From Tubiluchus corallicola (taxonomy: Eukaryota > Priapulida > Priapulimorpha > Priapulimorphida > Tubiluchidae), in NCBI GenBank assembly GCA_030141605.1, contig JAQGDQ010000023.1:124001-188000 (forward strand): a stretch of 64,000 nt of DNA, in the 5' to 3' direction. The notes beneath the pieces were generated by a model. The model was given only the letters and a program-made list of their open reading frames with translations. It ran no database searches and was not told the origin of the DNA. Made by a program: the position numbers and the translations under genes. Shown here piece after piece: positions 4,250 to 62,980 of this stretch; within the stretch, counting starts at the first letter, position 1, and each line of letters opens with the position of its first letter.

Positions 4250-5355
4250 AAAGTCATAATTGTCATAATTGAGTGATCAGTTATATGTTCCAAGTAAGTG
4301 TGATTTATATTATTTTTTAAACATGGACAGTGAACAGGCATTTTTTAAAACTTTAGCAATTGAGTTTCATATGTAAGGGCCATTGTTGTAAGGGCCATTG
4401 TATTTAATAGAAAATTTTCTAACATTTGTGTTGCACTGTATGTAGTGATAATTAGTGACTTAAAAGTCTTTATCGTGTATTATAATTATGCATTTCAGCA
4501 TTCAAGCAAAAATAATCAGTAAATAAGAGTGTCAATAATTTATGAGTGAATTTGTACAAGAAAATGGCGGCTTGGAACTTGTTAATGTCTTACATGTTTA
4601 GCAAGTTTAGTCTGTGAAATATTGGTGACGTGTGGTCCTGATAACTGGCAAATGTTACAGCTCGCACTATTTTCTTCTGAATATTTTGATGTACTGGTGT
4701 ATGTGCTCCCCCAAACAATGTTTGAATTATTAAGATATGGTAAAAAAGAGAATTAGATAATAATACAAGTACTGACTTAGGCAATATGTATCTATATAAT
4801 ACGTATGGTTTTGGAGATCTTACTTTCGATAAATTTAAGGTGTTGTTGCCGAGTTAGGTGTTCTTCTATAATAATACGTATGAACTTAATCTGTTTTACT
4901 TTATTTATTGGGACTTCATGGGTTTTTACTATAAGATTCCTACATATTCTTTCATTTTTGCTTGTGAATGCAATAAATTTGGTTTTTCAATATTGCTTGA
5001 CAACTTATTTGCGTTGAACCTTGTGGAGCGGAATACAAGTCCTTGGTTGATAGTATTTACAATTGAGCCGTAGTTTGAGTGACTATAGAATACATTGGTA
5101 TCATCAGCAAATAAACTGAAGTCTGGCAGAGTGGAAACATAACGGAGATCATTAAGATAAAGAGGAAAAAACAATGGACCTAAAATTGAGCCTTGCGAGA
5201 CACCATAATTGATTTGCTTCGAAGAAGAAAATATGCTGTCTATTACTACTGATAGCTTTCTGTTATCTAAACAAAAAGTAAACCACTGTAAAGGCAGACC
5301 TCTGACACCATAGTTGCTTAATTTAACTAAGAGTATTAAGAATTATGATGTTTCA
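4250..5355 (-). mobile_element. CR1-like non-LTR retrotransposon relic (RT to C-terminus)
   Basis: Reading on the minus strand from 5355, broken frames give NYGVRGLPLQWF, then the RT core INYGVSQGSILGPLF, then FADDTNVFYSHSN (catalytic Y/FADD) within 4929-5174. The C-terminal part follows at 4590-4784 (QKKIVRAVTFASYQDHTSPIF), and the element tail continues to about 4265 with RKFSIKYNGP. Order and spacing fit the 3-prime half of a CR1-group ORF2. Several stops and frame changes show it is dead. A 15-bp duplication (TAAGGGCCATTGT) lies inside it. It sits in the intron of the small peptide gene on the same strand. Confidence 0.85.
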
Positions 5356-27280: not shown

Positions 27281-28905
27281 GTTACTTAAACTCGGTAAAC
27301 GAATGATAGCTAAACTCAGTAAACGAATAATAGCTAAACTCAGTAAACGAATGATAGTTAAACTCAGTAAACGAATGATAGTTAAACTCAGTAAACGAAT
27401 GATAGCTGAACTCAGTAAACGAATAATAGCTGAACTCAGTAAACGAATGATAGTTAAACTCAGTAAACGAATGATAGTTAAACTCAGTAAACGAATGATA
27501 GTTAAACTCAGTAAACGAATGATAGCTGAACTCAGTAAACGAATAATAGCTAAACTCAGTAAACGAATGATAGTTAAACTCAGTAAACGAATGATAGCTG
27601 AACTCAGTAAACGAATAATAGCTGAACTCAGTAAACGAATGATAGTTAAACTCAGTAAACGAATGATAGCTGAACTCAGTAAACGAATAATAGCTGAACT
27701 CAGTAAACGAATGATAGCTAAACTCAGTAAACGAATGATAGCTAAACTCAGTAAACGAATGATAGCTAAACTCAGTAAACGAATGTTAGTTAAACTCAGT
27801 AAACGAATGATAGCTAAACTCAGTAAACGAATGATAGCTAAACTCAGTAAACGAATGATAGCTAAACTCAGTAAACGAATAATAGCTAAACTCAGTAAAC
27901 GAATGATAGCTAAACTCAGTAAACGAATGATAGCTAAACTCAGTAAACGAATGATAGTTAAACTCAGTAAACGAATGATAGTTAAACTCAGTAAACGAAT
28001 GATAGTTAAACTCAGTAAACGAATGATAGTTAAACTCAGTAAACGAATGATAGTTAAACTCAGTAAACGAATGATAGCTAAACTCAGTAAACGAATGATA
28101 GCTAAACTCAGTAAACGAATAATAGCTAAACTCAGTAAACGAATGATAGCTAAACTCAGTAAACGAATGATAGTTAAACTCAGTAAACGAATGATAGTTA
28201 AACTCAGTAAACGAATAATAGTTAAACTCAGTAAACGAATGATAGCTAAACTCAGTAAACGAATAATAGCTAAACTCAGTAAACGAATGATAGCTAAACT
28301 CAGTAAACGAATAATAGCTAAACTCAGTAAACGAATGATAGTTAAACTCAGTAAACGAATGATAGCTAAACTCAGTAAACGAATAATAGCTAAACTCAGT
28401 AAACGAATGATAGTTAAACTCAGTAAACGAATGATAGTTAAACTCAGTAAACGAATAATAGCTAAACTCAGTAAACGAATGATAGTTAAAACCAGTAAAC
28501 GAATGATAGTTAAACTCAGTAAACGAATAATAGCTAAACTCAGTAAACGAATGATAGCTAAACTCAGTAAACGAATGATAGTTAAACTCAGTAAACGAAT
28601 GATAGTTAAACTCAGTAAACGAATAATAGCTAAACTCAGTAAACGAATGATAGCTAAACTCAGTAAACGAATAATAGCTAAACTCAGTAAACGAATGTTA
28701 GTTAAACTCAGTAAACGAATAATAGCTAAACTCAGTAAACGAATGATAGCTAAACTCAGTAAACGAATAATAGCTAAACTCAGTAAACGAATGATAGCTA
28801 AACTCAGTAAACGAATGATAGTTAAAACCAGTAAACGAATAATAGCTAAACTCAGTAAACGAATGATAGTTAAAACCAGTAAACGAATGATAGTTAAACT
28901 CAGAG
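27281..28905. repeat. 24-bp minisatellite, ~67 copies
   Basis: The unit ACTCAGTAAACGAATGATAG plus CTAA is repeated in register for 1.6 kb. Variation is confined to a few sites (AATGAT/AATAAT, AGCT/AGTT, AAA/GAA and rare CC). Because the period is a multiple of three, one frame on the plus strand (KLSKRMIA repeats, 547 codons) and one on the minus strand stay open throughout. The open frame therefore carries no evidence of selection, and no gene is called. Variant units recur in blocks, suggesting multi-unit duplications. Confidence 0.97.
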
Positions 28906-29917: not shown

Positions 29918-30353
<436 letters not shown>

Positions 30354-31889: not shown

Positions 31890-32045
<156 letters not shown>

Positions 32046-39906: not shown

Positions 39907-39926
39907 TTTATTACCAGAAATTTATT
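39907..39926 (-). promoter_or_regulatory. Tandem poly(A) signals for the giant gene
   Basis: Minus-strand AATAAA occurs at 39907-39912 and 39921-39926, about 200 and 215 nt after the stop codon at 40126. They are the nearest canonical signals, giving a short 3-prime UTR. Confidence 0.5.
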
Positions 39927-40125: not shown

Positions 40126-43100
40126 TCAATCAAGATCTTGAGTATCGCGACGTCTCTTAATACATTTTTTCTGTAAAATGCAAAAAATTCCAAAGCAGCA
40201 AGCAATTGCAGCGAGATAAATCCATACAAGTTTTTTGAAAGACGGAGCTTCCTCTTCTACGGTCTCCTTTCCAGTATCATCACCAGCAAAAACTCCTATT
40301 TCTTCTAAAGAAACACATTTGATAAGTTTTGGACAATTCTTTACCTGTGCACCACAATCTGCACTTGTTAGCACACACTTTTGGCTGTTTTTTGGACAAG
40401 CAACACGTTCGCATGGAGAAGCTTTGCATTTACAGATGGGGCAAAGAGTTTCAGCATGACTCTCATACCCATGTAGGCACTCGACTGCACATTCACTGCT
40501 TACACCACAGTTAACATCTCTAGCAACGGAGCATCCAATGAAGGGTGAACCTGATGTTTGCATTGTACCTGGAATTTTCTGCCCTTCGCTTGTAACGCAC
40601 CACAATCGCTTACTATGTAAGTTAATTTGCACTGACTGATAATCACCATTACTCAAACACTGTGGCCGGTACAGTTCTTCAGACATAATTCGTGTCTCTG
40701 TTCCTGAGAGCACGTCGAAGTTTGCTTGTTCCACTTGGCAGGGAGTTAAATGCGGAGCAGAGCAAACAGAACCACAGTTTATAAAATGACAACATTTTTT
40801 CTCTGCTACGCAATCTCCGTCATTGTCACAGAAATGTCTAGGACATTGTTTAACAGTAAACGTTTCTTCACTAGGGCAACTTCCAACCTTTCTTACTTTC
40901 TCAAAAAAACATTTCGCAAGTTTTGGACACACTCCAGATCGACATTGTACATTGATGGCTTTACACTGCTGTGACGGCAGACATTTGATTTTTTTACATG
41001 GAGACGGTTTGCATTTACAAGTAGGACAAAGATTAGTCCTCTCTACTGAATAACCAAAAATACATTTCGTGGGGCAGTTTGTTTCATCAAAGTCGCATAA
41101 ACTTTGACCAGTGACCAAAGGAATTGAGCACACCTTCCCGCAACGTAAACTCTCGCAGCACAGTTCTGTTTCATTACAGTCATTATCATGGTTGCAAAAA
41201 TGTTCTTGACACTCATCAAAATAATATTCTATAGAATTCCGGCACATCCTATTACTCCGTCTAGCTTGTATACACATTGTTGCTTGTAAAAAGTCTGTGG
41301 ACAGTTTTGTTCCGGGAATAGGATAACCCTGTTTCGTAACACACCAAGCATAACCACCCCTGGTATGAAACTGGAACGGACTATATTCTCCATTGCTTAG
41401 ACACTTCGGTGGATGAACGTAATCTAGTAGGTGTGACTCTAACAGTAAGTGGTCACCATTTGCCTGCTCAACCTGGCACTTGGTAAATATTGGTATGGAA
41501 CAAATTCGGCCACATGATTTAGATGAACAGCATTTTTCTTCTGCAGGACAATCCACATCAGTGTTACATGATAATCTGGGGCACTCACTCAAAGTCAGCT
41601 TATTAGAATCAGGACAGGTGCCTACTTTGTTTCTTTGAATGTCTTCGCATCTTACAAGCGCAGGACAAGAAATGCCTCCACACTTTACAATAACTGTATT
41701 GCAAACCTGCGAACCAGGACAGACGACACCTTCACATGGAGAATGTTTACACTTACAAAAAGGACAAAGTGTCTCAGCGTCAACTGCATATCCGAAGTCA
41801 CACTTTAGACTACACTCTTTTATATTGTAAGCACATAACTGCAAGCCCGCAAGCATTGGAATTGAGCACACATTACCACATCGAGCAGACGGACAACATT
41901 TTTCTAATCCTTGACAATCTGAATCTTTGACACATTTATGAAGAGGACACTTTCTCAAGCCAATTTTGTCAATACATATGCCAGGCTTTAGTTCAAACAT
42001 TAATGGGCTATAGCAAACAGTGCCACATGTGTCCAAATAACAACATTTTTTATCTGCAGGACAGTCAATGTCATTATAGCATGATTTATTAGGACAAAAC
42101 TTATCGTCTGGGTGTAAAAACGCAGGACAAATTCCTTCTTTATTTAGCGATAACATTGAAGTAGGGCAATTAGAACTGCAGGTTTTGAAACTACAGCATC
42201 TTTTCCCTTTTGGACATTCCTCGTCACATTGGTCACCAAAACACTTTAGATTTGTACTAGATTTATCACAACCTTTGTGCTCACTCACATTAAGTACAGC
42301 TTTATTGCACGTTGTTGCACATATTTGAATATCACAACACTTTTGCTCACCAAAGCATTCAGCATGTGAAACACAAGATTTTCCTACAGATTTCTTGACT
42401 TCACATAGCTCAGAATCATTGCACACAACAAAATTATTCAAACTTAACACTGGAGTAGAACAGACACTACCACATGCAACAAAATGACAACATTTCTGGT
42501 TTGATGGACAACTGATATCATTTCTGCATGACTGAGACGGGCACTGTGCCGCACTAAAATATCCTGGTTGGTGACACAGTCCAGGTTTATTAATATTTAG
42601 TAAAGGAGTAAAACAAACATTGCCACATACATCAAAATAACAGCACTTTTGGTCTCCCAAACAATCACTGTTTGTCTGGCAAGACTGTACTGGACACCCA
42701 TCTCGTTGAGTAAATGTATCAGAATTATAACAAACCCCAGCTTTGCTTCTTGTTGCTTCACAATCAAAGGGCGGTGAGTCTGCTAGCTGCTTGGTTCCTG
42801 GAATTGGATGACCCTCTGCTGTCACACACCAAGAGTAGCCTCGGTAAAACTGCATTGCACTATAATAACCAGTACTGGAACATTGAGGTCGATAAACATT
42901 GGCAGTAAACTGATCTTGGTATTGTAATTTCAGATCAACATTTGATTGTTCTATTAAGCATGCTGTTAACACAGTAACCTGACATACCATCCCACAGGAG
43001 CTAAAATTACAACATTTTCTTGCAGGTCCACAATCAATGTCTTTATCACATTTTTTTCTGGGACACAGCTTGCCTTCAAATGCTCTAAAATCTTGACAAA

Positions 43101-46100
43101 TTCCTTTAATTTCTAATAAGTTCTTTGTATCAATCACTTGTATGAGTGTAGGCATGCACTTTCCAAGTTTTGGACAAAAAGCCATTCCACACCCCGGAAA
43201 GTCAATTGTTCTACATTCTTCTGATGGAGGACATTTGACTCCTTCACATGGCGAAGGCTTACATTGACAGGTTGCACAAAGAGTAATATTGTTCACAGCG
43301 TACCCATAAATACATGAAAGCTGACAGTCATCTAGGTTAACATCACAGGTCAATGAAGTATTATATTCAGGGTCAGTACATACCATACCACAAACATCAA
43401 AATGACAACATTTCTGTTTGTCAGGGCAATCTACATCATTGCTACAAGAATTATGTGAACAACTTCTATTGCTAGATGAGTTTGGACAAAGTCCTGACTT
43501 TACTATGGATACAATAGGCATCACACAGACACTCCCACAATCACCAATATTGCAGCACTTCTCCTCCAATGGACATTCAATGTCATTGTAACAAAACTGA
43601 GATGGGCAAGACAATTTTTTATATTTTAATGACTGAGGACAAATTCCTCGCTTGTTGACTGAGAGAATTGACTTGAAACAGACATTCCCGCAGCCAATAA
43701 AAGAACAACACTTTTCGTCATCTGGGCAATCACTGTCAACTTTGCAAAATTTGCTTGGACATTCACTGTCTCTAAGTTTTTCAAAATTGTGACAAACTCC
43801 TGGTTTAGGATCATTTGGTATGGGGTCTAAGCAAACAAAGCCACAGTGTTTGAGCCAACAGCATTTTTCTTTTTGTGGGCACTCAGTATCACTGCTACAA
43901 GACTGAGGTGGGCACATTACAATATCCACATTCTTTACATTGTAGCATATACCAGGTTTGTTTGCAGTTGTTATTAAAGGAGACGAGCAAACCCATTCAC
44001 ACTCTCTGAATCTACAACATTTTTGCAAATTTGGACAATCGATATCATTAATGCAGGTCTGCAATGGACAGTCAGTTTTTTGATAATAGTGAGGAGCCAA
44101 ACAAATGCCAGGTTTGTTCACATTCAGTAGGGGACTAGAACACACACTCCCACATTCATCATTCCAACAACATTTATCATTCACTGGGCAATCACCATCG
44201 TTGTTACACTGGTATGAACAGTTAGTAAGATCAGTATCTTGAAAACTGTAGCAAGAGCCCTTTTTGGCTGTTATTGCAGCACAGTTAGGAGAAGACGATA
44301 CTAGACTCTTTTTTGTCCCAGGAATTGGCTCTCCTTTTAAAGTTACGCACCAGAAATAACCAGTACTGTCATCTATTTGAATTTGGCTATACATGCCATT
44401 ATTATCACACTGTGGGATATACATTTCACTTGTTTTTCCAGTACTTAACAATTTGTAAAGGGCACTAGCTCGATCAACTTGGCATGCCGTTAATATAGGA
44501 GTAATGCAAATCCACCCAGAATTTTCAAAATAGCAGCACCTTTCTTCTGCTTGGCAGCTTATATCATTGTTACAAGGCTGATGCAGAGAATCATTTCTGG
44601 CGAAGCTATAGGTGTTTGGACATGTTCCAGGTTTAGTTGGAGCATCAAAACATTTTGGAAGTTTTGGACAATAATTATAATCACAGTCCAAATCTACAAC
44701 GCTACACACCTGTGACCTATGACATTTTATCCTTTTGCAAGGAGAATCATTACAGCCATAAGTAGGACACAGAGTTTCATTATGAATTTGATATCCATAA
44801 ATGCACTTTTTTGGGCAGCCTTTTTCTTTAAAATGACATTCGTTTAGCCCAAATCTTGCTGGTTGTACACATATTTTCCCACATGATAATATATTGCAGC
44901 ATTTTTGCCTGCCAAAGCAATCAACATCATTCTGACATGGCTGGCCAAAACAGTCATCATTAGGAATTTTCACGGGACAAACTCCTTCTTTTATACCAGA
45001 TAATATAGGAGTGCAGCAAACAGTGCCACAACGATTAAATACGCAGCACTTCTCTGAAAATTTGCAATCAATGTCGTTTTGGCAAGTTCGTGAAGGACAA
45101 CTACTAGCATAAAATGTATTAAAATCTGGGCAGATACCTGGATTGTTTAAAGACAGTATGGGGACAGAGCAAACATTTCCACATTCATCTGAATGACAAC
45201 ACTTTTCTCCAGCTGAACAATCAAAATCATTTTTGCACAACTGCAGTGGACACTTCGCAAAGGTTTTGATATTAGAACAAATACCTGGTGTGCTTCTTAC
45301 CATGCTGGCTGCATAACAGACATGTCCACATCCCTTGAAAACGCAGCATTTCATAGACGAAGGACAGTCAAAGTCACTGCTGCATTGTTGCTTTGGACAA
45401 TCTTTACCTTTCAACTTATTAAACACATGGCAAGTACCAGGTTTGCTCACAACTGTGATGGGGTCAAAGCAAACTTGTCCACAAGCAAAAAACTGGCAAC
45501 ACTTCTTGCTGTCTTTGCAATAAATATCATTTGTGCATGGCTGAGGTGGGCACTTCTTTCCATCGAAATAATCTGGAGGCTGGCACACTCCTGGTTTGTT
45601 AATACTTAATAAAGATGTGTGGCAAACTTTTCCACAATGCTCAGTACCACAGCATTTTTCTTCTGCTGGACAATCGACATCTGTTGCACAAGAATATTTA
45701 GGACAGCCAACGCTACTATAATTTACAATACCATGACAAATTCCAGGTTTTTCCACTAAAGCAGCACAGTCAAATGGTAACAAACCTGGTGACCTTTTTG
45801 TACCTGGTACTGGTACTCCATCTTCTGTAACACACCAAGAGAAATTTTTATGAGTTTGTGAAGGATTGTAGTCTCCATTCTTCAGGCAGAGTGGTCGGTA
45901 GATTTCTGATAAATCTTTAGTCATACTTTGCATTCTGAAATTAAATATTGTTAATTCGGTTTGGCAAGCAGACAACATAGGGGTTGCACATACAGCCTCA
46001 ATTTTCTCAAACTGACAACACTTCTCCTCTGCAGGACACTGACTGTCAACTACACAACGCTTCGGCAAACCAGTTGCGGTCATATTTTGGGGACATTTTC

Positions 46101-49100
46101 CGACTTTTGTCACAACTAAACACCTTGCCAGTTTCGGACAGAAATCACTGTGGCAGTGCACATCGACGAGAACACATTCCTCTCCTTCACCGCATTTAAT
46201 AGCATTGCACGGAGAAGGTTTGCAATTGCAAGTGGGGCAAAGTGTTTGATTATCAAATACATAACCATGTACACATTTAACTGAACAATCTTCAATAGAC
46301 ACTTCACATAACTGATGTCTAATACCAATCACTATAGAGCATACTTTTCCACAAGAAATCGATGTGCAGCACTTCTGCACACCAGGACAATCAACATCTG
46401 CATTACAGCTACGATTATTACAATCAGTAATATTAACTTTGTCAGGGCACGTGCCTGACTTTCTTACATTAAGCAATGGCTCAGAACAAACCATTCCACA
46501 ACCTGCAACTTGACAGCATTTCTGCTCCAGAGGACACTCTATGTCATTAGCACAAGCCTGAATCGGACATCTGGCAGAACTGGTGGTAAGAGTAGGACAA
46601 AGACCCGGTTTGTTTTCAGAATATATAGGCAATGAGCAAATGTTTCCACATAGCTCAGAAAAACAGCACTTTTGGTTTCCAGAACAGTCATCATCTACAA
46701 CACAGGACTCAGTAAGACATTCTCTGTTTTCGTGTTTATCATCATTGGGACATAAGCCCTTTTTATTACCAGTAAACATAGGAGTAAAACAGACTTTGCC
46801 ACAGGCCTCAAAATGGCAACACTTGTCCCGAAGCGGGCAGTCTATATCATACTTGCAGTGAGCACTTGGACATATTCTCATGTCAAATGTTTGTGAATTA
46901 TGACATAACCCTGGTTTACTTACAACTGGAAAAGGATTGACGCAGACGCTTCCACAGTGACCAAACCGGCAGCACTTTTGTGAACCGTGACAATAAATAT
47001 CATTGCTGCAAGACTGAGGGGGGCAATTACTTTCAGAGAGCATAGCTGGCTCGGGACAAATTCCAAGTTTATTAAGCGACAATAGAGGTGGAATACAAAC
47101 TTTTCCACATGCATCAAATTGACAGCAGATTTCAGATACTAAGCAGTCACTATCATTGCTACACAAGCTTGAAGGACATTTGCCCTTTTCAAAATAATTA
47201 GCTTCATAGCAAAGTTTTGCATAGTTGCCTAATGAATGACAACTTATGAGAACTGGATCATATAATTCCAACTTTTGCTTTGAACCTGGTACAGGAAAAC
47301 CGTCCTTGTCAACACACCAGAAATCACCAAGGCTTTTATTAATTTGAACAGGATTATAGTAACCCTTGTTATGGCAATTGGGCTGAAAAATATCTGTAGT
47401 TTCATTATCAAAATCTGATATTACATTCATAAGTTTGAAATTAGCTTGTTCAATCTGACAGGCAGTGAGTACTGGAGTTACACAAACTCTTTCACAGCAT
47501 CTCTCTTCTGCGGGGCATTCAAAATCATCAACACATGGCTGACCGGAAAAGGTACTATCAAACGCTGCACTTCTCCTTGGACACACTCCTGGTTTAAAAA
47601 AGTTAGAGCACTCGGCTAGTTTAGGACAAAATTTGAAGCCACAATCAACATCAACCAACTCACATTGTTGTGAAACCAAACATATTACATCTTGGCACGG
47701 AGAAGGTTTACAGTCACAAGTTGGGCACAGAGTATTATTATCTACTATATAACCATGAATGCATTTTTTAGGGCATTTATCCAAGCTAATAGAACATTTG
47801 TGCGAATCTGTGATTTGATCGAACTTACAGACAATGTACAATGATTCTGGTGACTGTTTTGATCCCGGAATTGGAATACCATTCTTGTCAACGCACCAGG
47901 AATACCCTGTTTTATGCGACTTTTGGATAGGTTTAAAGTCGCCGTTATCCAAACATTCAGAAATTACTGAAACAGAAGGTTTGAACCGAGCATTAGCATA
48001 TTCTATTTGACAAGGTGTTAATACAGGTATAACACAGGTGCTACCACATGCTGCAAAGTAGCAGCAAAGTTCCACAACTGCACACTCCCTGTCAGAAGAA
48101 CAAGTACGAACAGGACAAGAACTGCTATTTAATAATCTTGGAGATGGACAAACTCCAGCTTTCTTCACTCTCTTACACTTAGCAAGTTTTGGACAAAAAG
48201 AAGCACCACAATCAGTGTCTACAACATCACATATCTGTGATTCTCTACATTTCACACTAAAACAAGGAGAAGGTTTGCATGTACAAGTAGGGCACAATGT
48301 TTCTGGGTCATTCTCATAGCCATAGATGCAATCCTTTTGGCAACTGTAGATACTAAAGTTGCATGCACTGTTAAATGGAATGACACACACTTGGCCACAA
48401 GGAAAAATTTGGCAACACCTTTTTTCTCCCAGACAGTCAAGATCATTTCTACAAACCTGTGGAGGACATACTCTGCCATTGAAAACAGATGGACAAATCC
48501 CCGGCTTTTCACCAACTGTGACTGGTTTATAGCAAACATTACCACACTTTCTAAAAGTGCAACATTTCTCTTCTGCAGGACAGTGAATATCATTATAACA
48601 TGATGCAATCGGGCATTTTCTGAAATCGAACTCATCATATCTATAGCATATACCAGGTTTATTTATGGATAATAAAGGTTTCATGCACACGTTTCCACAC
48701 TTACTAAAGTGGCAACATTTTTCAAGTTCATAGCAGTCTGTGTCAATCGTGCACATGTTGGTGGGACACTTTATGCCATAAAAGTAATTCTCATCATGGC
48801 AAATTCCTGGTTTAATTCCCAATATCAATGGTTTATAGCATATGTTACCACACAGTGTAAAATAGCAACATTTCTCTTCAAAGGGGCAATCGATATCAAA
48901 ACTACAAAGTGTAGACGGGCAGCTTTTACCGTCAAATTCATCAGATCTGTAGCACGATCCTGGTTTCTTAGTAGATTTTAAGGGAGAAATACAAATGTGC
49001 CCACAAGTTACAAAATAGCAACACTTTTGTTGTTTTAAACAATCAACATCATTATTACATTGAGGCAAATTTTGGCATTCACTTTTATTGTATGGAGGCA

Positions 49101-52100
49101 GAATAGGGCAAATGCCTGGTTTGTTCATGTTTAGTAATGGAGTGTAACAAATCTTCCCACATGCATCAAAATAGCAACATCTCTTATCTCCTGGGCATTC
49201 ACTATCACTGCTACAAAAATGAGTTGGACACTCGCTACTTTTCAACATACTGGAACTATGACAAATTCCAATTTTATTCCTTGCAACATTACAATCATAC
49301 GGCAAGTGTCGACCTTGCCGCTTTGTTCCAGGAATTGCAATGCCATTATAGGAAACACACCAAGAAGAACTGAAAATTTCATCAAACTGTAATGGTTTAT
49401 AATGGCCATTATTCAGACATTTTGACTTGGCTAGTCTTGGCAGTTCAGCACGTGTTCCTAACATGTGTAAATTTAAATTTGCTTGTTCAATTTGGCATGC
49501 GGTCAGTTCGGGTGAAACACAGACTCTTTTACAATTACGAAAAAAGCAGCACTTTTCCTCTCCTGGACAACCTGCATCCGTTCTACAAAGCTGAGATGGA
49601 CAGCTTACTTGAAGAAATTTGTCTGATCTTGGACACTTTCCTTCCTTTACATTTTCCATGCAGCTAGCCAGGTAGGGACAAAAAAGACTCCCACATTTCT
49701 TTTTGGTTAATTTGCATGTCAGTGAACCCGGGCATATAACATTGTCACATGGAGATGGTTTACAGTCACATGTAGAGCAAAGTGTTTTAGTATCTTTCAT
49801 ATATCCAAATATACATTTCTTCTTACAGTTTTCTACACTAAATTTGCAAGATTCCTGTAAACTGCTAACTACTGATATCAAGCAAACATTTCCACAAGAC
49901 ATAGTTCTACAACATTTTTGCAGTCCAGGACAATCAATATCATCAATGCAAGACTGTGATTGACACTCAACATCATTTACAAGGTTTGGGCAAGTACCAG
50001 GCTTTACACCATGATAAAACAATTTGCTACAGATAGTTCCACATTGTGCAGAGAAGCAGCATTTCTCTTCAGAGGAGCAATCTATGTCATTGTAACAGGT
50101 CTGGTTTGGACAAGAATATCCAAAGCCAATATCTGTAAAACAAATCCCGTGCCTTTCCTCCGACAATACTGGAGAAGAGCAAACACTACCGCAAGTATCA
50201 AACCAACAACATTTTTCTTTAGCTGGACAATCCTTATCAAGCTCACAAAATCGGCTTGGGCACTCAACATTGTCAAACTTACTAGGTTCATAACAATGAC
50301 CAGGCTTATTTCCATTCATCATAGCCGCATAGCACACTTTACCACACCCATCAAAATAACAGCATTTTTGCTTATCGGGACAGTTAATATCAGTACTACA
50401 ATACTTTGAAGGACACTCTAAATTCATTAATCTACTTGTATTATGGCATCTACCTGGTTTACTCTCAATTGTAATTGGAGACACACAGACATACCCACAT
50501 GCAAAAAACCTGCAACATTTTTTCTCTCCATTGCAATCATCATCAGCAGTGCATACTGCATTTGGGCACTCACTTTTGCCAATGTAATCTGGTACTGGAC
50601 AAAGTCCAAGTTTTTTTGAGCTTAACACAATGGAAGTGCAAACCTTCCCACATGCACCAATTATGCAACACTTGTGTTCAGGTAAACAATCATTATCGCT
50701 GCTGCATGACATACGTAGATGGTCAAGTGCAGAACAATTAATGTCTGGAAAATTTTCAGTGATGTTAGGACAAATACCCGGTCTCCTTATAAAAGTACTG
50801 CAATCAGAAGGTAAAATTCCCTTTTGCCTTTTAGTTCCAGGAATTGCATGACCGGATTGCAAGACACACCAAGTGAAACCATGGGCATCATGAAATTGCA
50901 AGGGACTATAGCCTGTTTGGGAACACTCTGGTCGATCAATTCCTGGATCAACTCCTAACAAGTGAAGATCAGCATTTGCTTGCTCGATTCCACATACCGT
51001 TAATGATGAAGATATGCAACTCAAACCATACTCAGGAACAGCAGTATTCAAGCGATCAGGTAAGCACCTTGTCTGAGAGCAGGTGAGCGTATAACCTAAT
51101 AAACAATTACAACTGTAATAATTTATACCATCCACACAAGTTTCATCCTTTAAACAAGGATTAGATGCACAATCATCTATATTTGTTTCACAGTAAGTGC
51201 CTGTATAACCTAGTTGACAACTACACTTAAAAGAGTTAACAAAATTTGTACATGTTGCATCATTCAAACAATGGTTAAGGTTGCAAAAATCAATGGTTTC
51301 TTCACAATTGATGCCTGTATATCCTGAGGCACAGTTACAAACATATAAATTGATACTGTCTGTGCATATTGCACCATTCAGACAAGGTTTAGATTTACAT
51401 TCATCTATATTTATTTCGCAGTTTATACCTGCGTAACCTGATACACATATACATGTAAAGGACTGCAAACTTCCCACACAGGTTGCTCCATTAAAACACA
51501 GCCCACACTCAGAGACACTTACTGGATCCTTACAAGTTGAACCTGTATAACCGAAAGCACATATACAAGAATATGAATGTCTATTATCCAAGCATGTTGC
51601 ACCATTTAAACAAGGTTTTGAATCACATTTGCCTGTATTTAATTCACAATTGTCACCACTATAACCAGGTACACACAAGCAGTGGTAAGAATTTATACTG
51701 TCAACACATGATGCACTATTTGAACACGGACTTGAGGCACATTCATCGATATTTGTCTGACAGTAAATGCCAGTATAACCAGCAGCACATATGCATCTGT
51801 ATGAATTCACATCATCTATACACATTGCTCTATTCAGACAAGGACTTGAAACACACTCATCAATGTTTACTTCACAGGTGATGCCTATGTAACCTGACAC
51901 ACAGATGCAGTTATAAGAGTTCACGTCATCCAAACACAGCGCACTATTTAAGCATGGATTTGAGGAACACTCATCAATGTTTATTTCACAGTTGATGCCT
52001 ATATAACCTGCGACACATGTACAGTTATATGAGTTAACGTCACCTAAGCATGTTGCACCATTTAAGCATGGACTAGAGGCACATTCATCAACGTTTATTC

Positions 52101-55100
52101 CACAGTTGGCACCCGAATACCCAGCCACACATGTGCAGCTGTATGAGTTTACATCATCTAAGCACACTGCACCATTCAAGCATGGACTTGAGGCACATTC
52201 ATCTACATTTATTTCACAGGTGACACCTGAATAACCAGCCACACATGTGCAGTTATATGAGTTACCGTCACCTAAGCATATTGCACCATTTAAGCATGGA
52301 CCAGAGGCACATTCATCAATGTTTATTTCACAGTTAGTTCCTGCATAGCCTGCCACACATGTGCAGTTATATGAGTTTACATCATCTAAGCATGTTGCAT
52401 CATTTAAGCATGGACTTGAGACACATTCATCAATATTTATTTCACAGTCAATGCCTGCATAACCTGCAACACATGCACAGTTATATAAGTTTACATCATC
52501 TAAGCATGTTGCATCATTTAAGCAAGGACTTGAGGCACATTCATCAATGTTCATTTCACAGTTGATGCCTGTATAACCTGCCACACATGTGCAGTTATAT
52601 GAGTTTACATCATCTAAGCATGTTGCACCATTTAAGCATGGACTTGAGGTACATTCGTTTATATTTATTTCACAGTTGGCACCTACATAACCAGCCACAC
52701 ATGTGCAGTTATATGAGTGTACATCATCTAAGCATAGTGCACCATTTAAGCATGGACTTGAGGCACATTCATCTACATTTATTTCACAGGTGACACCTGA
52801 ATAACCAGCCACACATGTACAGTTATATGAGTTACCATCACCTAAGCATATTGCACCATTTAAGCATGGACTAGAGGCACATTCATCAACGTTTATTTCA
52901 CAGTTAGTTCCTGCATGGCCTGCCACACATGTGCAGTTATATGAGTTTACATCATCTAAGCATGTTGCACCGTTTAAGCATGGACTTGAGACACATTCAT
53001 CAATATTTATTTCACAGTCAATGCCTGCATAACCTGCAACACATGCACAGTTATATGAGTTTACATCATCTAAGCACGCTGCACCATTTAAACATGGACT
53101 TGAGGCACATTCGTCAATGTTTGTTTCGCAGTTATTGCTTGCGTAACCTGCAACACATGTGCAGTTATATGAGTTAATATCATCTAAGCAAATTGCATCA
53201 TTTAAACATGGACTTGAGGCACATTCATCAATGTTTATTTCACAGCTGATGCCTGTATAACCTGCCACACATGTGCAGTTATATACGTTTANNNNNNNNN
53301 NNNNNNNNNNNNNNNNNNNNNNNNNNNTGCAGTTATATGAGTTTACATCATCTAAGCATGTTGCACCATTTAAGCATGGACTTGAGGCACATTCATCAAT
53401 GTTTATTTCACAGTTGATGCCTGTATAACCTGCCACACATGTGCAGTTATATGAGTTTACATCATCTAAGCATGTTGCATCATTTAAGCATGGACTTGAG
53501 GCACATTCATCTACATTTATTTCACAGTTGATGCCTGTATAACCGGCCATGCATGTGCAGTTATATGAGTTTACATCATCTAAGCATGTTGCACCATTTA
53601 AGCACGGACTTGAGGCACATTCATCTACATTTAATTCACAGTTGACACCTGAATAACCAGCCACACATGTGCAGTTATATGAGTCTACATCATCTAAACA
53701 TGTTGCACCATTTAAGCATGGACTTGAGGCACATTCATCAACGTTTATTTCGCAGTTCAAACCTGTATAGCCAGCCATACATGTGCAGTTATATGAGTTT
53801 ACATCATCTAAGCATGTTGCACCATTTAAGCACGGACTTGAGGCACATTCATCAATGTTTATTTCACAGTTGTTGCCTGTATAACCTGCCACACATGTGC
53901 AGTTATATGAGTTTACATCATCTAAGCATGTTGCACCATTTAAGCACGGACTTGAGGCACATTCATCTACATTTAATTCACAGTTGACACCTGAATAACC
54001 AGCCACACATGTGCAGTTATATGAGTCTACATCATCTAAACATGTTGCACCATTTAAGCATGGACTTGAGGCACATTCATCAACGTTTATTTCGCAGTTC
54101 AAACCTGTATAGCCAGCCATACATGTGCAGTTATATGAGTTTACATCATCTAAGCATGTTGCACCATTTAAGCACGGACTTGAGGCACATTCATCAATGT
54201 TTATTTCACAGTTGTTGCCTGTATAACCAGCCACACATGTGCAGTTATATGAGTTTACATCATCTAAGCATGTTGCACCATTTAAGCACGGACTTGTGGC
54301 ACATTCGTCAATGCTTATTTCACAGTTGATGCCTGTATAACCAGCCACACATGTGCAGTTATATGAGTTTACATCATCTAAGCATGTTGCACCATTTAAG
54401 CATGGACTTGAGGCACATTCATCAATGTTTATTTCACAGTTGATGCCTGTATAACCAGCCACACATGTGCAGTTATATGAGTTTACATCATCTAAGCATG
54501 TTGCACCATTTAAGCATGGACTTGAGGCACATTCATCAATGTTTATTTCACAGTTGATGCCTGTATAACCTGCCACACATGTGCAGTTATATGAGTTTAC
54601 ATCATCTAAGCATGTTGCACCATTTAAGCACGGACTTGAGGCACATTCATCTACATTTATTTCACAGTTGAAACCTGTATAACCAGCCAAACAAGTGCAG
54701 TTATATGAGTTTACATCATCTAAGCATGTTGCACCATTTAAGCATGGACTTGAGGCACATTCGTCAATGTTTGTTTCACAGTTGATGCCTGTATAACCAG
54801 CCACACATGTGCAGTTATATGAGTTTACATCATCTAAGCATGTTGCATCATTTAAACATGGACTTGAGGCACATTCATCTACATTTATTTCACAGTTGAT
54901 GCCTGTATAACCGGCCATGCATGTGCAGTTATATGAGTTTACATCATCTAAGCATGTTGCACCATTTAAGCATGGACTTGAGGCACATTCATCAATGTTT
55001 ATTTCACAGTTGTTGCCTGTATAACCTGCCACACATGTGCAGTTATATGAGTTTACATCATCTAAGCATGTTGCACCATTTAAGCATGGACTTGAGGCAC

Positions 55101-58100
55101 ATTCATCAATGTTTATTTCACAGTTGATGCCTGTATAACCTGCCACACATGTGCAGTTATATGAGTTTACATCATCTAAGCATGTTGCACCATTTAAGCA
55201 TGGACTTGAGGCACATTCATCTACATTTATTTCACAGTTGACACCTGAATAACCAGCCAAACATGTGCAGTTATATGAGTTTACATCATCTAAGCATGTT
55301 GCACCATTTAAGCATGGACTTGAGGCACATTCGTCAATGTTTGTTTCACAGTTGATGCCTGTATAACCAGCCACACATGTGCAGTTATATGAGTTTACAT
55401 CATCTAAGCATGTTGCATCATTTAAACATGGACTTGAGGCACATTCATCAATGTTTATTTCACAGTTGATGCCTGTATAACCTGCCACACATGTGCAGTT
55501 ATATGAGTTTACATCATCTAAGCATGTTGCACCATTTAAGCATGGACTTGAGGCACATTCATCAATGTTTATTTCGCAGTTGAAACCTGTATAGCCAGCC
55601 ATACATGTGCAGTTATATGAGTTTACATCATCTAAGCATGTTGCACCATTTAAGCACAGACTTGAGGCACATTCATCTACATTTATTTCACAGTTGACAC
55701 CTGAATAACCAGCCAAACATGTGCAGTTATATGAGTTTACATCATCTAAGCATGTTGCACCATTTAAACATGGACTTGAGGCACATTCGTCAATGTTTAT
55801 TTCACAGATGATGCCAGTATAACCTGCCACACATGTGCAGCTATATAAGTTTACATTATCTAAGCACGTTGCATCATTTAAGCATGGACTTGAGGCGCAT
55901 TCATCTACATTTATTTCACAGTTGATGCCTGTATAACCGGCCACACATGTGCAGTTATATGAATTTACATCATCTAAGCATGTTGCACCATTTAGGCACG
56001 GACTTGAGGCACATTCATCAATGTTTGTTTCACAGTTGATGCCTGTATAACCTGTCACACATGTGCAATTATATGAGTTTACATCATCTAAGCATGTTGC
56101 ACCATTTAAGCATGGACTTGAGACACACTCATCTACATTTATTTCACAGTTGAAACCTGAATAGCCAGCCATGCATGTGCAGTTATATGAGTTTACATCA
56201 TCTAAGCATGTTGCACCATTTAAGCACGGACTTGAGGCACATTCATCTACATTTAATTCACAGTTGACACCTGAATAACCAGCCACACATGTGCAGTTAT
56301 ATGAGTTTACATCATCTAAGCATGTTGCATCATTTAAACATGGACTTGAGGCACATTCGTCAATGTTTATTTCACAGTTGATGCCTGTATAACCTGCCAC
56401 ACATGTGCAGTTATATAAGTTTACATTATCTAAGCACGTTGCATCATTTAAGCATGGACTTGAGGCACATTCATCTACATTTATTTCACAGTTGATGCCT
56501 GTATAACCGGCCACGCATGTGCAGTTATATGAGTTTACATCATCTAAGCATGTTGCACTATTTAAGCATGGACTTGAGGCACATTCATCCACATTTATTT
56601 CACAGTTGATGCTTGTATAACCTGTCACACATGTGCAGTTATATGAGTTAACATCATCTAAGCATGTTGCACCATTTAAGCATGGACTTGAGGCACATTC
56701 ATCAATGTTTATTTCACAGTTGTTGCCTGTATAACCTGCCACACATGTGCAGTTATATGAGTTTACATCATCTAAGCATGTTGCACCATTTAAGCATGGA
56801 CTTGAGGCACATTCATCTATATTTATTTCACAGTTGGCACCTGAATAACCAGCCACACATGTGCAGTTATATGAATGTACATCATCTAAGCATGTTGCAC
56901 CATTTAAGCATGGACTTGAGGCACATTCATCTACATTTATTTCACAGTTGACACCTGAATAACCAGCCAAACATGTGCAGTTATATGAGTTTATGTCATC
57001 TAAGCAAGTTGCACCATTTAAGCATGGACTTGAGGCACATTCATCAATGTTTATTTCGCAGTTGAAACCTGTATAGCCAGCCATACATGTGCAGTTATAT
57101 GAGTTTACATCATCTAAGCATGTTGCACCATTTAAGCACGGACTTGAGGCACATTCATCTACATTTATTTCACAGTTGACACCTGAATAACCAGCCACAC
57201 ATGTGCAGTTATATGAGTTTACATCATCTAAGCATGTTGCACCATTTAAGCACGGACTTGAGGCACATTCATCTACATTTATTTCACAGTTGACACCTGA
57301 ATAACCAGCCACACATGTGCAGTTATATGAGTTTACATCATCTAAGCATGTTGCACCATTTAAGCATGGACTTGAGGCACATTCATCAATGTTTATTTCA
57401 CAGTTGTTGCCTGTATAACCTGCCACACATGTGCAGTTATATGAGTTTACATCATCTAAGCATGTTGCACCATTTAAGCATGGACTTGAGGCACATTCAT
57501 CTACATTTATTTCACAGCTGACACCTGAATAACCAGCCACACATGTGCAGTTATATGAGTTTACATCATCTAAGCATGTTGCACCATTTAAGCATGGACT
57601 TGAGGCACATTCATCAATGTTTATTTCGCAGTTGAAACCTGTATAGCCAGCCATACATGTGCAGTTATATGAGTTTACATCATCTAAGCATGTTGCACCA
57701 TTTAAGCACGGACTTGAGGCACATTCATCTACATTTATTTCACAGTTGACACCTGAATAACCAGCCAAACATGTGCAGTTATATGAGTTTACATCATCTA
57801 AGCATGTTGCACCATTTAAGCATGGACTTGAGGCACATTCTTCAATGTTTGTTTCGCAGTTGATGCCTGTATAACCTGTCACACATGTGCAATTATATGA
57901 GTTTACACCATCTAAGCATGTTGCACCATTTAAGCATGGACTTGAGGCACATTCATCAATGTTTATTTCACAGTTGATGCCTGTATAACCTGCCACACAT
58001 GTGCAGTTATATGAGTTTACATCATCTAAGCATGTTGCACCATTTAAGCATGGACTTGAGGCACATTCGTCAATGTTTGTTTCACAGTTGATGCCTGTAT

Positions 58101-60162
58101 ACCCAGCCACACATGTGCAGTTATATGAGTTTACACCATCTAAGCATGTTGCACTATTTAAGCATGGACTTGAGGCACATTCATCCACATTTATTTCACA
58201 GTTGATGCCTGTATAACCAGCCACACATGTGCAGTTATATGAGTTTACATCATCTAAGCATGTTGCATCATTTAAACATGGACTTGAGGCACATTCGTCA
58301 ATGTTTATTTCACAGTTGATGCCTGTATAACCTGCCACACATGTGCAGCTATATAAGTTTACATTATCTAAGCACGTTGCATCATTTAAGCACGGACTTG
58401 AGGCACATTCATCTACATTTATTTCACAGTTGATGCCTGTATAACCGGCCACGCATGTGCAGTTATATGAGTTTACATCATCTAAGCATGTTGCACCATT
58501 TAAGCATGGACTTGAGGCACATTCGTCAATGTTTGTTTCACAGTTGATGCCTGTATAACCTGCCACACATGTGCAGTTATATGAGTTTACATCATCTAAG
58601 CATGTTGCACCATTTAAGCATGGACTTGAGGCACATTCATCAATGTTTGTTTCACAGTTGATGCCTGTATAACCTGCCACACATGTGCAGTTATATGAGT
58701 TTACATCATCTAAGCATGTTGCACCATTTAAGCATGGACTTGAGGCACATTCATCTACATTTATTTCACAGTTGATGCCTGTATAACCGGCCATGCATGT
58801 GCAGTTATATGAGTTTACATCATCTAAGCATGTTGCACCATTTAAGCACGGACTTGAGGCACATTCATCTACATTTATTTCACAGTTGACACCTGAATAA
58901 CCAGCCAAACATGTGCAGTTATATGAGTTTACATCATCTAAGCATGTTGCACCATTTAAGCACTGACTTGAGGCACATTCATCTACATTTATTTCACAGC
59001 TGACACCTGAATAACCAGCCACACATGTGCAGTTATATGAGTTTACATCATCTAAGCATGTTGCACCATTTAAGCACGGACTTGAGGCACATTCATCTAC
59101 ATTTATTTCACAGTTGACACCTGAATAACCAGCCAAACATGTGCAGTTATATGAGTTTACATCATCTAAGCATGTTGCATCATTTAAACATGGACTTGAG
59201 GCACATTCGTCAATGTTTATTTCACAGTTGATGCCTGTATAACCTGCCACACATGTGCAGCTATATAAGTTTACATCATCTAAGCATGTTGCATCATTTA
59301 AGCACGGACTTGAGGCACATTCATCTACATTTATTTCACAGTTGATGCCTGTATAACCGGCCACGCATGTGCAGTTATATGAGTTTACATCATCTAAGCA
59401 TGTTGCACCATTTAAGCATGGACTTGAGGCACATTCGTCAATGTTTATTTCACAGTTGATGCCTGTATAACCAGCCACACATGTGCAGTTATATGAGTTT
59501 ACATCATCTAAGCACGTTGCACTATTTAAGCATGGACTTGAGGCACATTCGTCAATGTTTATTTCACAGTTGATGCCTGTATAACCTGTCACACATGTGC
59601 AGTTATATGAGTTTACATCATCTAAGCATGTTGCACCATTTAAGCATGGACTTGAGGCGCATTCATCTACATTTATTTCACAGTTGATGCCTGTATAACC
59701 TGCCACACATGCGCAGTTATATGAGTTTACATCATCTAAGCATGTTGCACCATTTAAGCATGGACCTGAGGCACATTCATCAATGTTTATTTCACAGTTG
59801 ATGCCTGTATAACCTGCCACACATGTGCAGTTATATGAGTTTACATCATCTAAGCATGTTGCACCATTTAAGCACGGACTTGAGGCACATTCATCTACAT
59901 TTATTTCACAGTTGACACCTGAATAACCAGCCAAACATGTGCAGTTATATGAGTTTACATCATCTAAGCATGTTGCACCATTTAAGCATGGACTTGAGGC
60001 ACATTCATCAATGTTTATTTCACAGTTGATACCTGTATAACCAGCCACACATGTGCAGTTATATGAGTTTACATCATCTAAGCATGTTGCATCATTTAAA
60101 CATGGACTTAGGCACATTCCGTCAATGTTTATTTCACAGTTGATGCCTGTATAACCTGCCAC
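40126..60162 (-). CDS. Giant EGF/thyroglobulin/WAP/antistasin membrane protein, main body
   Basis: This 6,678-codon uninterrupted frame is the body of one gene with 60238-62355. Order: about 80 EGF repeats (codons 1-3030), then nine thyroglobulin type-1 domains (each with ..WCV..G..(I/V)PG(T/S)K), about 45 WAP-like four-disulfide cores (pattern KPGxCP..C..D.DCP..KCC...CG.VC), nine antistasin-like segments (C.(F/Y/H)GY....LCP.C.CKPSPC) each followed by a Cys-rich piece, one transmembrane helix and a 15-residue tail rich in Lys/Arg. WAP, thyroglobulin-1 and antistasin modules inhibit serine or cysteine proteases in known proteins, so a tethered multi-headed inhibitor or matrix/adhesion role is inferred. 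No intron is needed anywhere. The apparent Met at 60162 is an accident of the indel cluster and not a true start. It contains the 36-base gap at 53292-53327. Confidence 0.93.
40174..40230 (-). other. Transmembrane helix near the C-terminus
   Basis: [19 protein letters not shown] followed by [15 protein letters not shown] and the stop. A single hydrophobic segment with a basic stop-transfer flank predicts a type I membrane protein with almost all its mass outside the cell. Cysteines at the membrane edge could be palmitoylated (inference). Confidence 0.88.
40231..51020 (-). repeat. Nine-fold supermodule array Tg1-WAP(6)-antistasin-WAP
   Basis: Thyroglobulin type-1 IPGT landmarks lie at about 50840, 49327, 47862, 47285, 45800, 44320, 42795, 41309 and 40568. 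Six intervals are 1.47-1.53 kb and hold six WAPs, an antistasin-like segment, a SPC..V.C....C piece and one WAP. The third round (47862 to 47285) has lost the six-WAP block, the eighth keeps one WAP before its antistasin segment, and the ninth has none. The array therefore arose by duplication of a ~500-residue block followed by deletions. Confidence 0.85.
53292..53327. other. Assembly gap (36 N)
   Basis: The gap lies in the EGF array at a repeat-unit junction. With 36 N the flanking units do not restore the 114-bp period, so the true length is probably different. 36 is a multiple of three and so does not disturb the frame. Confidence 0.99.
53650..54335 (-). repeat. Tandem duplication of a three-EGF block (2 x 342 bp)
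   Basis: Two successive 342-bp blocks share the same order of rare variants ([31 protein letters not shown]). They were duplicated as a unit, most likely by unequal crossing-over. Confidence 0.85.
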
Positions 60163-60240
60163 ATGTGCAGTTATATGAGTTTACATCATCTAAGCATGTT
60201 GCATCATTTAAGCATGGACTTACACATTCATCTACATTTA
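60107..60240. other. Indel cluster splitting the giant gene
   Basis: Compared with neighbouring repeat copies on the plus strand: GACTTGAGG becomes GACTTAGG (-1), ATTCGTC becomes ATTCCGTC (+1), GCCACACATG becomes GCCACATG (-2), GACTTGAGGCAC becomes GACTTACAC (-3), and TTTATTTCAC becomes TTTATTCAC (-1). The three deletions between the two frames sum to -6, so the register is restored. Confidence 0.85.
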
Positions 60241-62355
60241 TTCACAGTTGATGCCTGTATAACCGGCCACACATGTGCAGTTATATGAGTTTACATCATC
60301 TAAGCATGTTGCACTATTTAAGCATGGACTTGAGGCACATTCATCCACATTTATTTCACAGTTGATGCTTGTATAACCTGTCACACATGTGCAGTTATAT
60401 GAGTTTACATCATCTAAGCATGTTGCACCATTTAAGCATGGACTTGAGGCACATTCATCAATGTTTATTTCGCAGTTGAAACCTGTATAGCCAGCCATAC
60501 ATGTGCAGTTATATGAGTTTACATCATCTAAGCATGTTGCACCATTTAAGCACGGACTTGAGGCACATTCGTCTACATTTAATTCACAGTTGACACCTGA
60601 ATAACCAGCCAAACATGAGCAGTTATATGAGTTTACATCATCTAAGCATGTTGCACCATTTAAGCACGGACTTGAGGCACATTCATCTACATTTATTTCA
60701 CAGTTGATGCCTGTATAACCGGCCATGCATGTGCAGTTATATGAGTTTACACCATCTAAGCATGTTGCACTATTTAAGCATGGACTTGAGGCACATTCAT
60801 CCACATTTATTTCACAGTTGATGCTTGTATAACCTGTCACACATGTGCAGTTATATGAGTTAACATTATCTAAGCATGTTGCACCATTTAAGCATGGACT
60901 GGAGGCACATTCATCAATGTTTATTTCGCAGTTGAAACCTGTATAGCCAGCCATACATGTGCAGTTATATGAGTTTACATCATCTAAGCATGTTGCACCA
61001 TTTAAGCATGGACTTGAGGCACATTCATCAATGTTTATTTCGCAGTTGAAACCTGTATAGCCAGCCATACATGTGCAGTTATATGAGTTTACATCATCTA
61101 AGCATGTTGCACCATTTAAGCACTGACTTGAAGCACATTCATCTACATTTATTTCACAGTTGACACCTGAATAACCAGCCAAACATGTGCAGTTATATGA
61201 GTTTACATCATCTAAGCATGTTGCACCATTTAAACATGGACTTGAGGCACATTCATCAATGTTCGTTTCACAGTTGATGCCTGTATAACCGGCCACACAT
61301 GTGCAGTTATATGAATTTACATCATCTAAGCATGTTGCACCATTTAGGCATGGACTTGAGGCACATTCATCAATGTTCGTTTCACAGTTGATACCTGTAT
61401 AACCTGTCACACATATGCAGTTATATGAGTTTACATCATCTAAGCATGTTGCACCACTTAAACATGGACTTGAAGCACACTCATCTGTGTTTGTTTGGCA
61501 CCTAGTTCCCTCGTAACCAGAAAAACAAGTACAAGCATAGTAACCAAACCCATTAGTACAATCCCCATGAAGGCAAGGATTTGAATTACACTCATCGAGT
61601 GAATCTGTTTCGCACCACTGTCCAGTGACACCTGCTAGACAGGCACATATAAATGAACCAGGAATGTTGGTACATGTTCCATTATGTAAACATGGTTCCC
61701 ATACACACTCATTGAAATCTGTTTCACAATAGAAGCCTGTAAAACCCAGTTCACACTGGCACAAATAGACGCCTAAAAAATTGTTTGGATTTGTCCCGCA
61801 TGTACCATTTTGGCACATGTTATTGATACATGGATCCCCTCTTACAGATGGTACAGAAGTGACCCAAAATTCAAATCCTGTATGGCTGGTGTGTACACCA
61901 TCTGTCTGAAATCTTGTGTGAATATAGCCAACCGCTTTGTCCTTTGTTACATACCTCGTAAAAGGTGTTCCATAATGCTCACAAACCTGTTCATCCCACA
62001 CAACTGGATCACCATGTCCTATCTCAATATATTCATTAGGGCAGGCAAGATCTAACTTTATAAATCGAAGCAGGTAAAGGTTATACTTTGGTCCTGTATC
62101 ATTAGGGTATGAAAATCTGATGTAATTAAAACAGTTATGAGCAGGTACATTTTCGTAATTGCCAGGGGGTGAAGATATGACTGTTGCACCTAATTCTGTT
62201 GTCAGAATATTATCGGATTTATTATTTTTAAATACTGTCGAGCACATTTTCTGAAGAGGATAATATGGCCACGATAATGCATATATTACATTTACTGGAG
62301 AGTAGCACAAAAGTAAGTTAAACAGTAATCCAAAGTATTTATGTTGACTTAACAT
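60238..62355 (-). CDS. Giant EGF/thyroglobulin/WAP protein, N-terminal part (signal peptide, CUB, EGF)
   Basis: Start ATG at 62355 opens with a signal peptide ([20 protein letters not shown]..). A CUB domain follows at residues ~38-168 (Cys38, 75, 105, 125; [20 protein letters not shown]). Then come three divergent EGF modules (175-286) and about 11 homogeneous EGF repeats from residue ~289. The frame stops at TAA 60238-60240, created by loss of one A from the repeated TGTGAAATAAAT context. Downstream indels of 3 and 2 bases bring the frame back, and 40126-60162 continues the same repeat array in the same register: 62355 to 40126 is exactly 7,410 codons. I therefore regard this as the 5-prime end of the same gene, with the stop most likely an assembly error. 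Confidence 0.92.
61852..62244 (-). other. CUB domain
   Basis: Residues ~38-168, about 130 long with four cysteines, [20 protein letters not shown] (the SP..YP...C.W block), a [12 protein letters not shown] strand and a terminal GFEFWV strand. CUB domains bind proteins or carbohydrate, often with calcium; the EIGHGD and TDG regions could contribute acidic ligands. Confidence 0.8.
62278..62355 (-). other. Signal peptide of the giant protein
   Basis: Residues 1-26: a short polar start, then hydrophobic [10 protein letters not shown] and VNVIYA with small residues near the likely cleavage site. It directs the protein into the secretory pathway. Confidence 0.8.
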
Positions 62356-62834: not shown

Positions 62835-62980
62835 TTTGCATAACCTGAAATACATACATGTGCAATTACAGGAAAGTGTGACATCGAAACATACATGTTG
62901 CACCATGTAAACAGGGACTTGGAGCTCATTCATCAATGTTCTTTTCATAGCAGATGCCTTTATAACCTGCAATACATGTG
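62835..62980 (-). pseudogene. Decayed EGF repeat upstream of the giant gene
   Basis: The minus strand reads KNIDE, a stop, then APSPCLHGATCMF, clearly an EGF unit of the same family. At the DNA level it aligns with the 114-bp unit over about 140 bp (TTGCACCATGTAAACAGGGACTTGG). Internal stops rule out function. It lies 480 bp 5-prime of the start codon, in the same orientation. Confidence 0.75.

Follow-up and report, generated by a model that had tools for sequence, protein, structure and literature searches.

The limpet shell-matrix proteins Lotgi1|201804 and Lotgi1|239125 have 8 and 11 WAP domains (about 85 and 103 kDa), and abalone perlwapin has three (PMC3374290). Sea-star Sfp3 and Sfp8 are adhesive footprint proteins with FAMeT domains, and disulfide stability has been proposed for sea-star footprint proteins (PMC9382459). 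The green-mussel byssus has long EGF repeats and two WAP-domain genes are among those highly expressed in the green-mussel foot (PMC7971044), WAP and EGF are among the over-represented annotations of mussel foot transcripts (PMC5549309), an antistasin/WAP-like inhibitor has been described from a brittle star (PMC11310086), and fibropellin-like poly-EGF proteins are found in extracellular material (PMC12549020). Here we analyze a stretch of 64,000 nucleotides from the priapulid Tubiluchus corallicola (hereafter the window; assembly GCA_030141605.1, contig JAQGDQ010000023.1, positions 124,001 to 188,000 of the forward strand; positions below are those of the window), in which the minus strand from 62355 to 40126 encodes, over about 22 kb, a giant membrane protein of EGF, WAP and thyroglobulin type-1 (Tg1) repeats. 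The modules are familiar, and their combination looks new.

Super-repeats in the C-terminal half

The C-terminal half of the protein is built from a super-repeat, Tg1-WAP6-antistasin-WAP, that is present nine times (six full and three shortened copies), a regularity that is absent from the preliminary description of this DNA. After the EGF array, the module string reads T-W6-A-W twice, T-A-W, T-W6-A-W four times, T-W-A-W and T-A (T, Tg1; W, WAP; A, antistasin-like), followed by the membrane helix. The full units, whose edges are approximate and were placed just before the first Tg1 cysteine, as were those of the shortened ones, are units 1 (49507-51003), 2 (48022-49506), 4 (45976-47469), 5 (44494-45975), 6 (42970-44493) and 7 (41488-42969), all on the minus strand and spaced 488-507 residues. 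The shortened units on the same strand are unit 3 (47470-48021; Tg1-antistasin-WAP), unit 8 (40750-41487; Tg1-WAP-antistasin-WAP) and unit 9 (40300-40749; Tg1-antistasin). In three of the nine units (47470-48021 and 40300-41487), the WAP6 block is wholly or largely missing, but Tg1 and the antistasin-like segment are kept.

The argument for duplication of whole super-repeat units is carried by the exact module order and spacing. The mean identity of WAP modules was 0.408 at the same position across units (124 pairs), 0.391 within the same unit (127 pairs) and 0.385 for other pairs (739), and the same-position similarity was not attained in any of 2000 shuffles of the labels within units. Note that this excess is small and confined to positions 2, 5 and 6; it is absent at positions 1, 3 and 4 and in the WAP module after the antistasin-like segment.

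The terminal transmembrane helix of the preliminary description was borne out by hydropathy (mean Kyte-Doolittle 2.61 over 19 residues from residue 7376). The helix (40168-40236, minus strand) is followed by a short basic tail of 15 residues and the stop codon (40126-40128). Two AATAAA polyadenylation-type signals lie about 200 bases past the stop, on the same strand (39907-39926).

WAP, Tg1 and antistasin-like modules

The approximate WAP number given previously (45) agrees with the pattern count of 45 double-cysteine cores, 42 with eight cysteines and three irregular, and the Pfam WAP match (PF00095) is very strong (E 8.6e-192 over the C-terminal piece), with 5 and 39 stretches in two pieces sharing 100 residues. 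Among 41 cores, the proportions of synonymous and non-synonymous differences (pS and pN) were 0.83 and 0.32, respectively. The nine Tg1 domains reported before were likewise recovered by pattern, and the Pfam profile (PF00086) matched very strongly, with eight stretches in the piece that holds eight of the nine copies. The antistasin-like segments fared less well: nine motifs were found by pattern as claimed, but the Pfam scores (PF02822) of eight of them were all under the cut-off of 21.2 bits (15.4-20.3 bits, E 0.0008-0.028), and the fifth segment had no Pfam antistasin match. For the first segment, the antistasin match (E 0.0094) was surpassed by that of a coiled-coil family with no relation to it (E 0.0043). 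A second cysteine motif follows the antistasin-like motif, and bdellastasin aligns to both halves in the opposite order (E 0.68). A match of the post-antistasin segment to the small venom-type peptide 2mva (E 0.0026) was set aside as just a short cysteine pattern.

The preliminary description read the modules as protease inhibitors, and a membrane-anchored, multi-headed inhibitor, with Tg1 acting against cysteine cathepsins and WAP and antistasin against serine proteases on an EGF stalk, is a reading that we consider doubtful. The Tg1 fold is compatible with it: in a structure model of one Tg1 copy, the predicted fold was that of saxiphilin, p41 and thyroglobulin, although inhibitors were not separable from non-inhibitors by fold, and the antistasin-like half of the model (residues 1-70) was barely covered by the comparison. 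Three features weigh on the other side. The WAP segment between cysteines C2 and C3 is short, with 4 residues in 38 of the 42 eight-cysteine modules, 3 in one, 5 in one and 9 in two, so that most do not have the loop length of elafin (8 residues) and the two 9-residue segments could qualify. Conservation is absent at the antistasin P1 positions. In each of the nine Tg1 domains, the cysteine before WCV and that after the conserved glutamine are missing, and with them one disulfide pair. None is therefore of subtype 1A (three disulfides, six cysteines, CWCV), and the nine copies, with C1-C2 spans of 18-27 residues, fit subtype 1B, with two disulfides, of PMC7349879, a paper in which Tg1 domains are termed Metazoa-specific.

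EGF stalk

The EGF stalk (51064-61830, minus strand; residues 176-3764) has about 94 modules, close to the approximately 95 of the preliminary description: 90 were found by a strict pattern and four by eye, namely the first unit, a broken unit, one spanning a sequence gap and one irregular unit. Pfam gave 12 and 78 EGF stretches, with very strong scores, in the two protein pieces that hold the array, and at the DNA level Tandem Repeats Finder detected a tandem array of a 114-bp unit on the minus strand (51712-61496). The spacing is exactly 38 residues in 83 of the 89 intervals, the array matches at 92% in its longer part, and the mean unit identity is about 0.9. The copy number is uncertain because the units are nearly identical, and the count is only as good as the assembly.

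The ratios of non-synonymous to synonymous change (dN/dS) from repeat comparisons, 0.28 (69 units) and 0.25 (18 units), indicate that the EGF repeats are under purifying selection. The value of pS was 0.21 in the main part of the array (51712-61496) and 0.55 in its C-terminal part, and unit identity showed no drop with distance over 40 lags. Since the main part is more uniform and identity is flat over distance, these results suggest that the array has been homogenised.

Calcium binding is indicated by a Pfam match to EGF_CA, and 80 of the 90 units fit the calcium-ligand pattern. The Notch-type O-glucose, O-fucose and O-GlcNAc patterns fit 83, 80 and 76 units, respectively; shuffled controls, run for the first two only, gave means of 1.7 and 20.4. 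Such glycosylation patterns in most units would suit a Notch-like ligand or receptor, in which the glycan-bearing array binds a partner and signals via the short tail. We regard this as highly unlikely: the tail after the helix has just 15 residues, a Pfam search of three protein pieces at E<=0.01 gave EGF-type families, WAP and Tg1 alone, and the EGF repeats seem homogenised rather than individually specialised.

Integrity of the reading frame

The claim of one strand and one register for 22 kb held in part. There is a single minus-strand register, but it is divided into two open reading frames (62355-60238, 705 amino acids; 60162-40126, 6,678 amino acids), and it contains six in-frame stops and a run of 36 N. 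Straight read-through gives 7,409 codons, in accordance with the approximately 7,400 residues expected before, including the six internal stops, which all fall within codons 706-725 (codons 706, 708, 712, 716, 722 and 725). This stop patch (60181-60240, minus strand) lies amid a cluster of small indels in two neighbouring EGF repeats, and the frame is restored beyond it. Aligned with a paralogous EGF stretch, the patch shows six gap openings and five mismatches over about 245 bases; the paralogue was the best match among the stretches tested, a choice which keeps mismatches low, and the ratio is only a hint. Gaps that outnumber base changes are a pattern of error rather than of decay. Because gaps exceed base changes and the frame is otherwise free of stops, the patch is probably a sequencing or assembly error. 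An intron was rejected by eye, the patch being clearly EGF-repeat DNA. The 36 N (53292-53327) lie within the EGF array and leave the link between its two parts unproven.

These observations also bear on the possibility that the gene is broken, that is, that the stops are real and the gene is recently dead or split, or that the array is an assembly construct, and that a 7,400-residue protein does not exist. The six stops, the N run and the tendency of near-identical repeats to assemble badly speak for it, whereas the error-like patch, subject to the choice of the paralogue, the freedom of the remaining frame from stops and the apparent purifying selection on the repeats speak against it, and we consider it quite unlikely. 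A chance open frame is excluded, because about 248 stops are expected at this base composition in the last 3,629 codons and only the final stop is present. As far as sequence can tell, the 22-kb frame belongs to a genuine animal gene, which has one probable error patch and whose repeats are under purifying selection. The gene is apparently a single coding exon; at about 22 kb without interruption, such an exon would be comparable to the largest coding exons known.

N-terminal region and surrounding sequence

Translation and hydropathy supported the signal peptide noted earlier: the start codon and the hydrophobic segment occupy 62278-62355 (minus strand; residues 1-26, with the end set by eye). 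The CUB domain claimed next to it is unproven. Fibropellins have the order CUB-EGF. Neither Pfam (PF00431), searched with four cuts of the N-terminus, nor the PDB sequences gave a CUB match at E up to 10. On a profile of six CUB sequences, with a weak but collinear match, the 185-residue N-terminus scored 5.5 bits and residues 36-175 scored 6.6 bits, a value exceeded by 4 of 1000 shuffles of the 185-residue N-terminus, whereas true members, each left out in turn, scored 75-117 on the same profile. Single-sequence structure prediction of the N-terminal end reached a mean predicted local distance difference test (pLDDT) score of only 31. The region (61852-62247, minus strand; about residues 37-168) is therefore CUB-like at best. 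An RGD at residue 172 was not used, as about 0.5 are expected by chance.

Upstream of the gene, about 520 bases from its start codon and likewise on the minus strand (62872-62979), there is a degenerate EGF module; it is interrupted by a stop in frame and is 58% identical to array units over 36 residues. Elsewhere in the window, a satellite (27287-28903) repeats a 24-bp unit about 67 times; one frame on each strand stays open through some 550 codons and translates into simple repeats. Perfect GA and CT microsatellites have 48 and 71 units (30135-30230 and 31891-32032). A minus-strand fragment (4932-5342) resembles reverse transcriptase (Pfam RVT_1, E 0.00012; 22.2 bits, under the curated cut-off of 29.6) and is probably a retrotransposon remnant; it was the only match of this type among ten flanking open reading frames scanned. 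No Rfam family and no tRNA was found in the window. A prokaryotic or viral source was set aside in view of the Tg1 domains and of the microsatellites, the weak reverse-transcriptase fragment and the AATAAA signals, which suit an animal chromosome.

Possible role and comparison with known proteins

We favour, with middling confidence, a giant type-I membrane protein that acts mainly as a rod outside the cell, either structural or adhesive, with Tg1 heads that perhaps bind cathepsins. The EGF part would be a calcium-stiffened, O-glycosylated stalk that reaches away from the cell, with a length, estimated from module lengths, of a few hundred nanometres. The super-repeats near the membrane would form a collar that is armoured by disulfides and resistant to proteases. 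Most of its WAP modules would be structural, and its Tg1 modules may have kept the ability to bind cysteine proteases of the cathepsin type. The protein would thus most likely do mechanical and protective work. The gene probably grew at two levels, by unequal crossing-over of the 114-bp EGF unit and by an older duplication of the super-repeat of about 1.5 kb. The more specific proposal of a membrane-tethered 'protease sponge' from one exon of about 22 kb, with nine Tg1 cathepsin traps, armour of WAP modules without the elafin loop, a calcium rod with Notch-type glycans and duplication at two levels, seems to us unlikely as a whole.

Protease-inhibitor modules thus appear to have been reused as building material, as the short WAP C2-C3 segments and the loss of the Tg1 disulfide suggest, so that the question 'inhibitor or armour?' is directly testable with small recombinant blocks. 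Caution is needed, since domain labels alone are insufficient for naming such proteins inhibitors.

In accordance with the earlier statement that no described protein with this combination and copy number is known, our search of open-licence papers found none combining Tg1, WAP, antistasin, EGF and CUB. Protein sequence searches gave no relative at E<=0.001 and one weak WAP match (E 0.51); exact shared words were required, and this absence is weak evidence. At the level of single modules, the thyropins saxiphilin domain 2 and the p41 fragment, which are Tg1 inhibitors, appear to have the Tg1 fold in common with the modelled copy, and saxiphilin domain 2 is reported, in the text available, without the same disulfide that is missing in the nine copies here; according to such text, saxiphilin has two Tg1 domains and p41 one, against nine in the membrane rod. 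Elafin, a WAP protein like omwaprin and SLPI, has a loop following C2 to which nothing corresponds in the one WAP copy aligned. As for whole architectures, the green-mussel protein fp-2 also has an extracellular EGF array, although its 23 repeats make it far shorter and no Tg1/WAP/antistasin part is mentioned in the portion seen of PMC7971044. Sfp3 and Sfp8 combine WAP and antistasin domains as here, Sfp3 also having repetitive EGF, while the corresponding part of PMC9382459 mentions no Tg1 super-repeat. In the two limpet proteins, groups of WAP domains are split by antistasin-like domains, as in the super-repeats; for the limpet and abalone shell proteins, compared by description only, the available part of PMC3374290 mentions no Tg1, EGF array or membrane helix. 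Beside these systems, the present gene stands as an extreme case among repeat-built extracellular proteins, with two nested levels of duplication in what seems to be a single exon.
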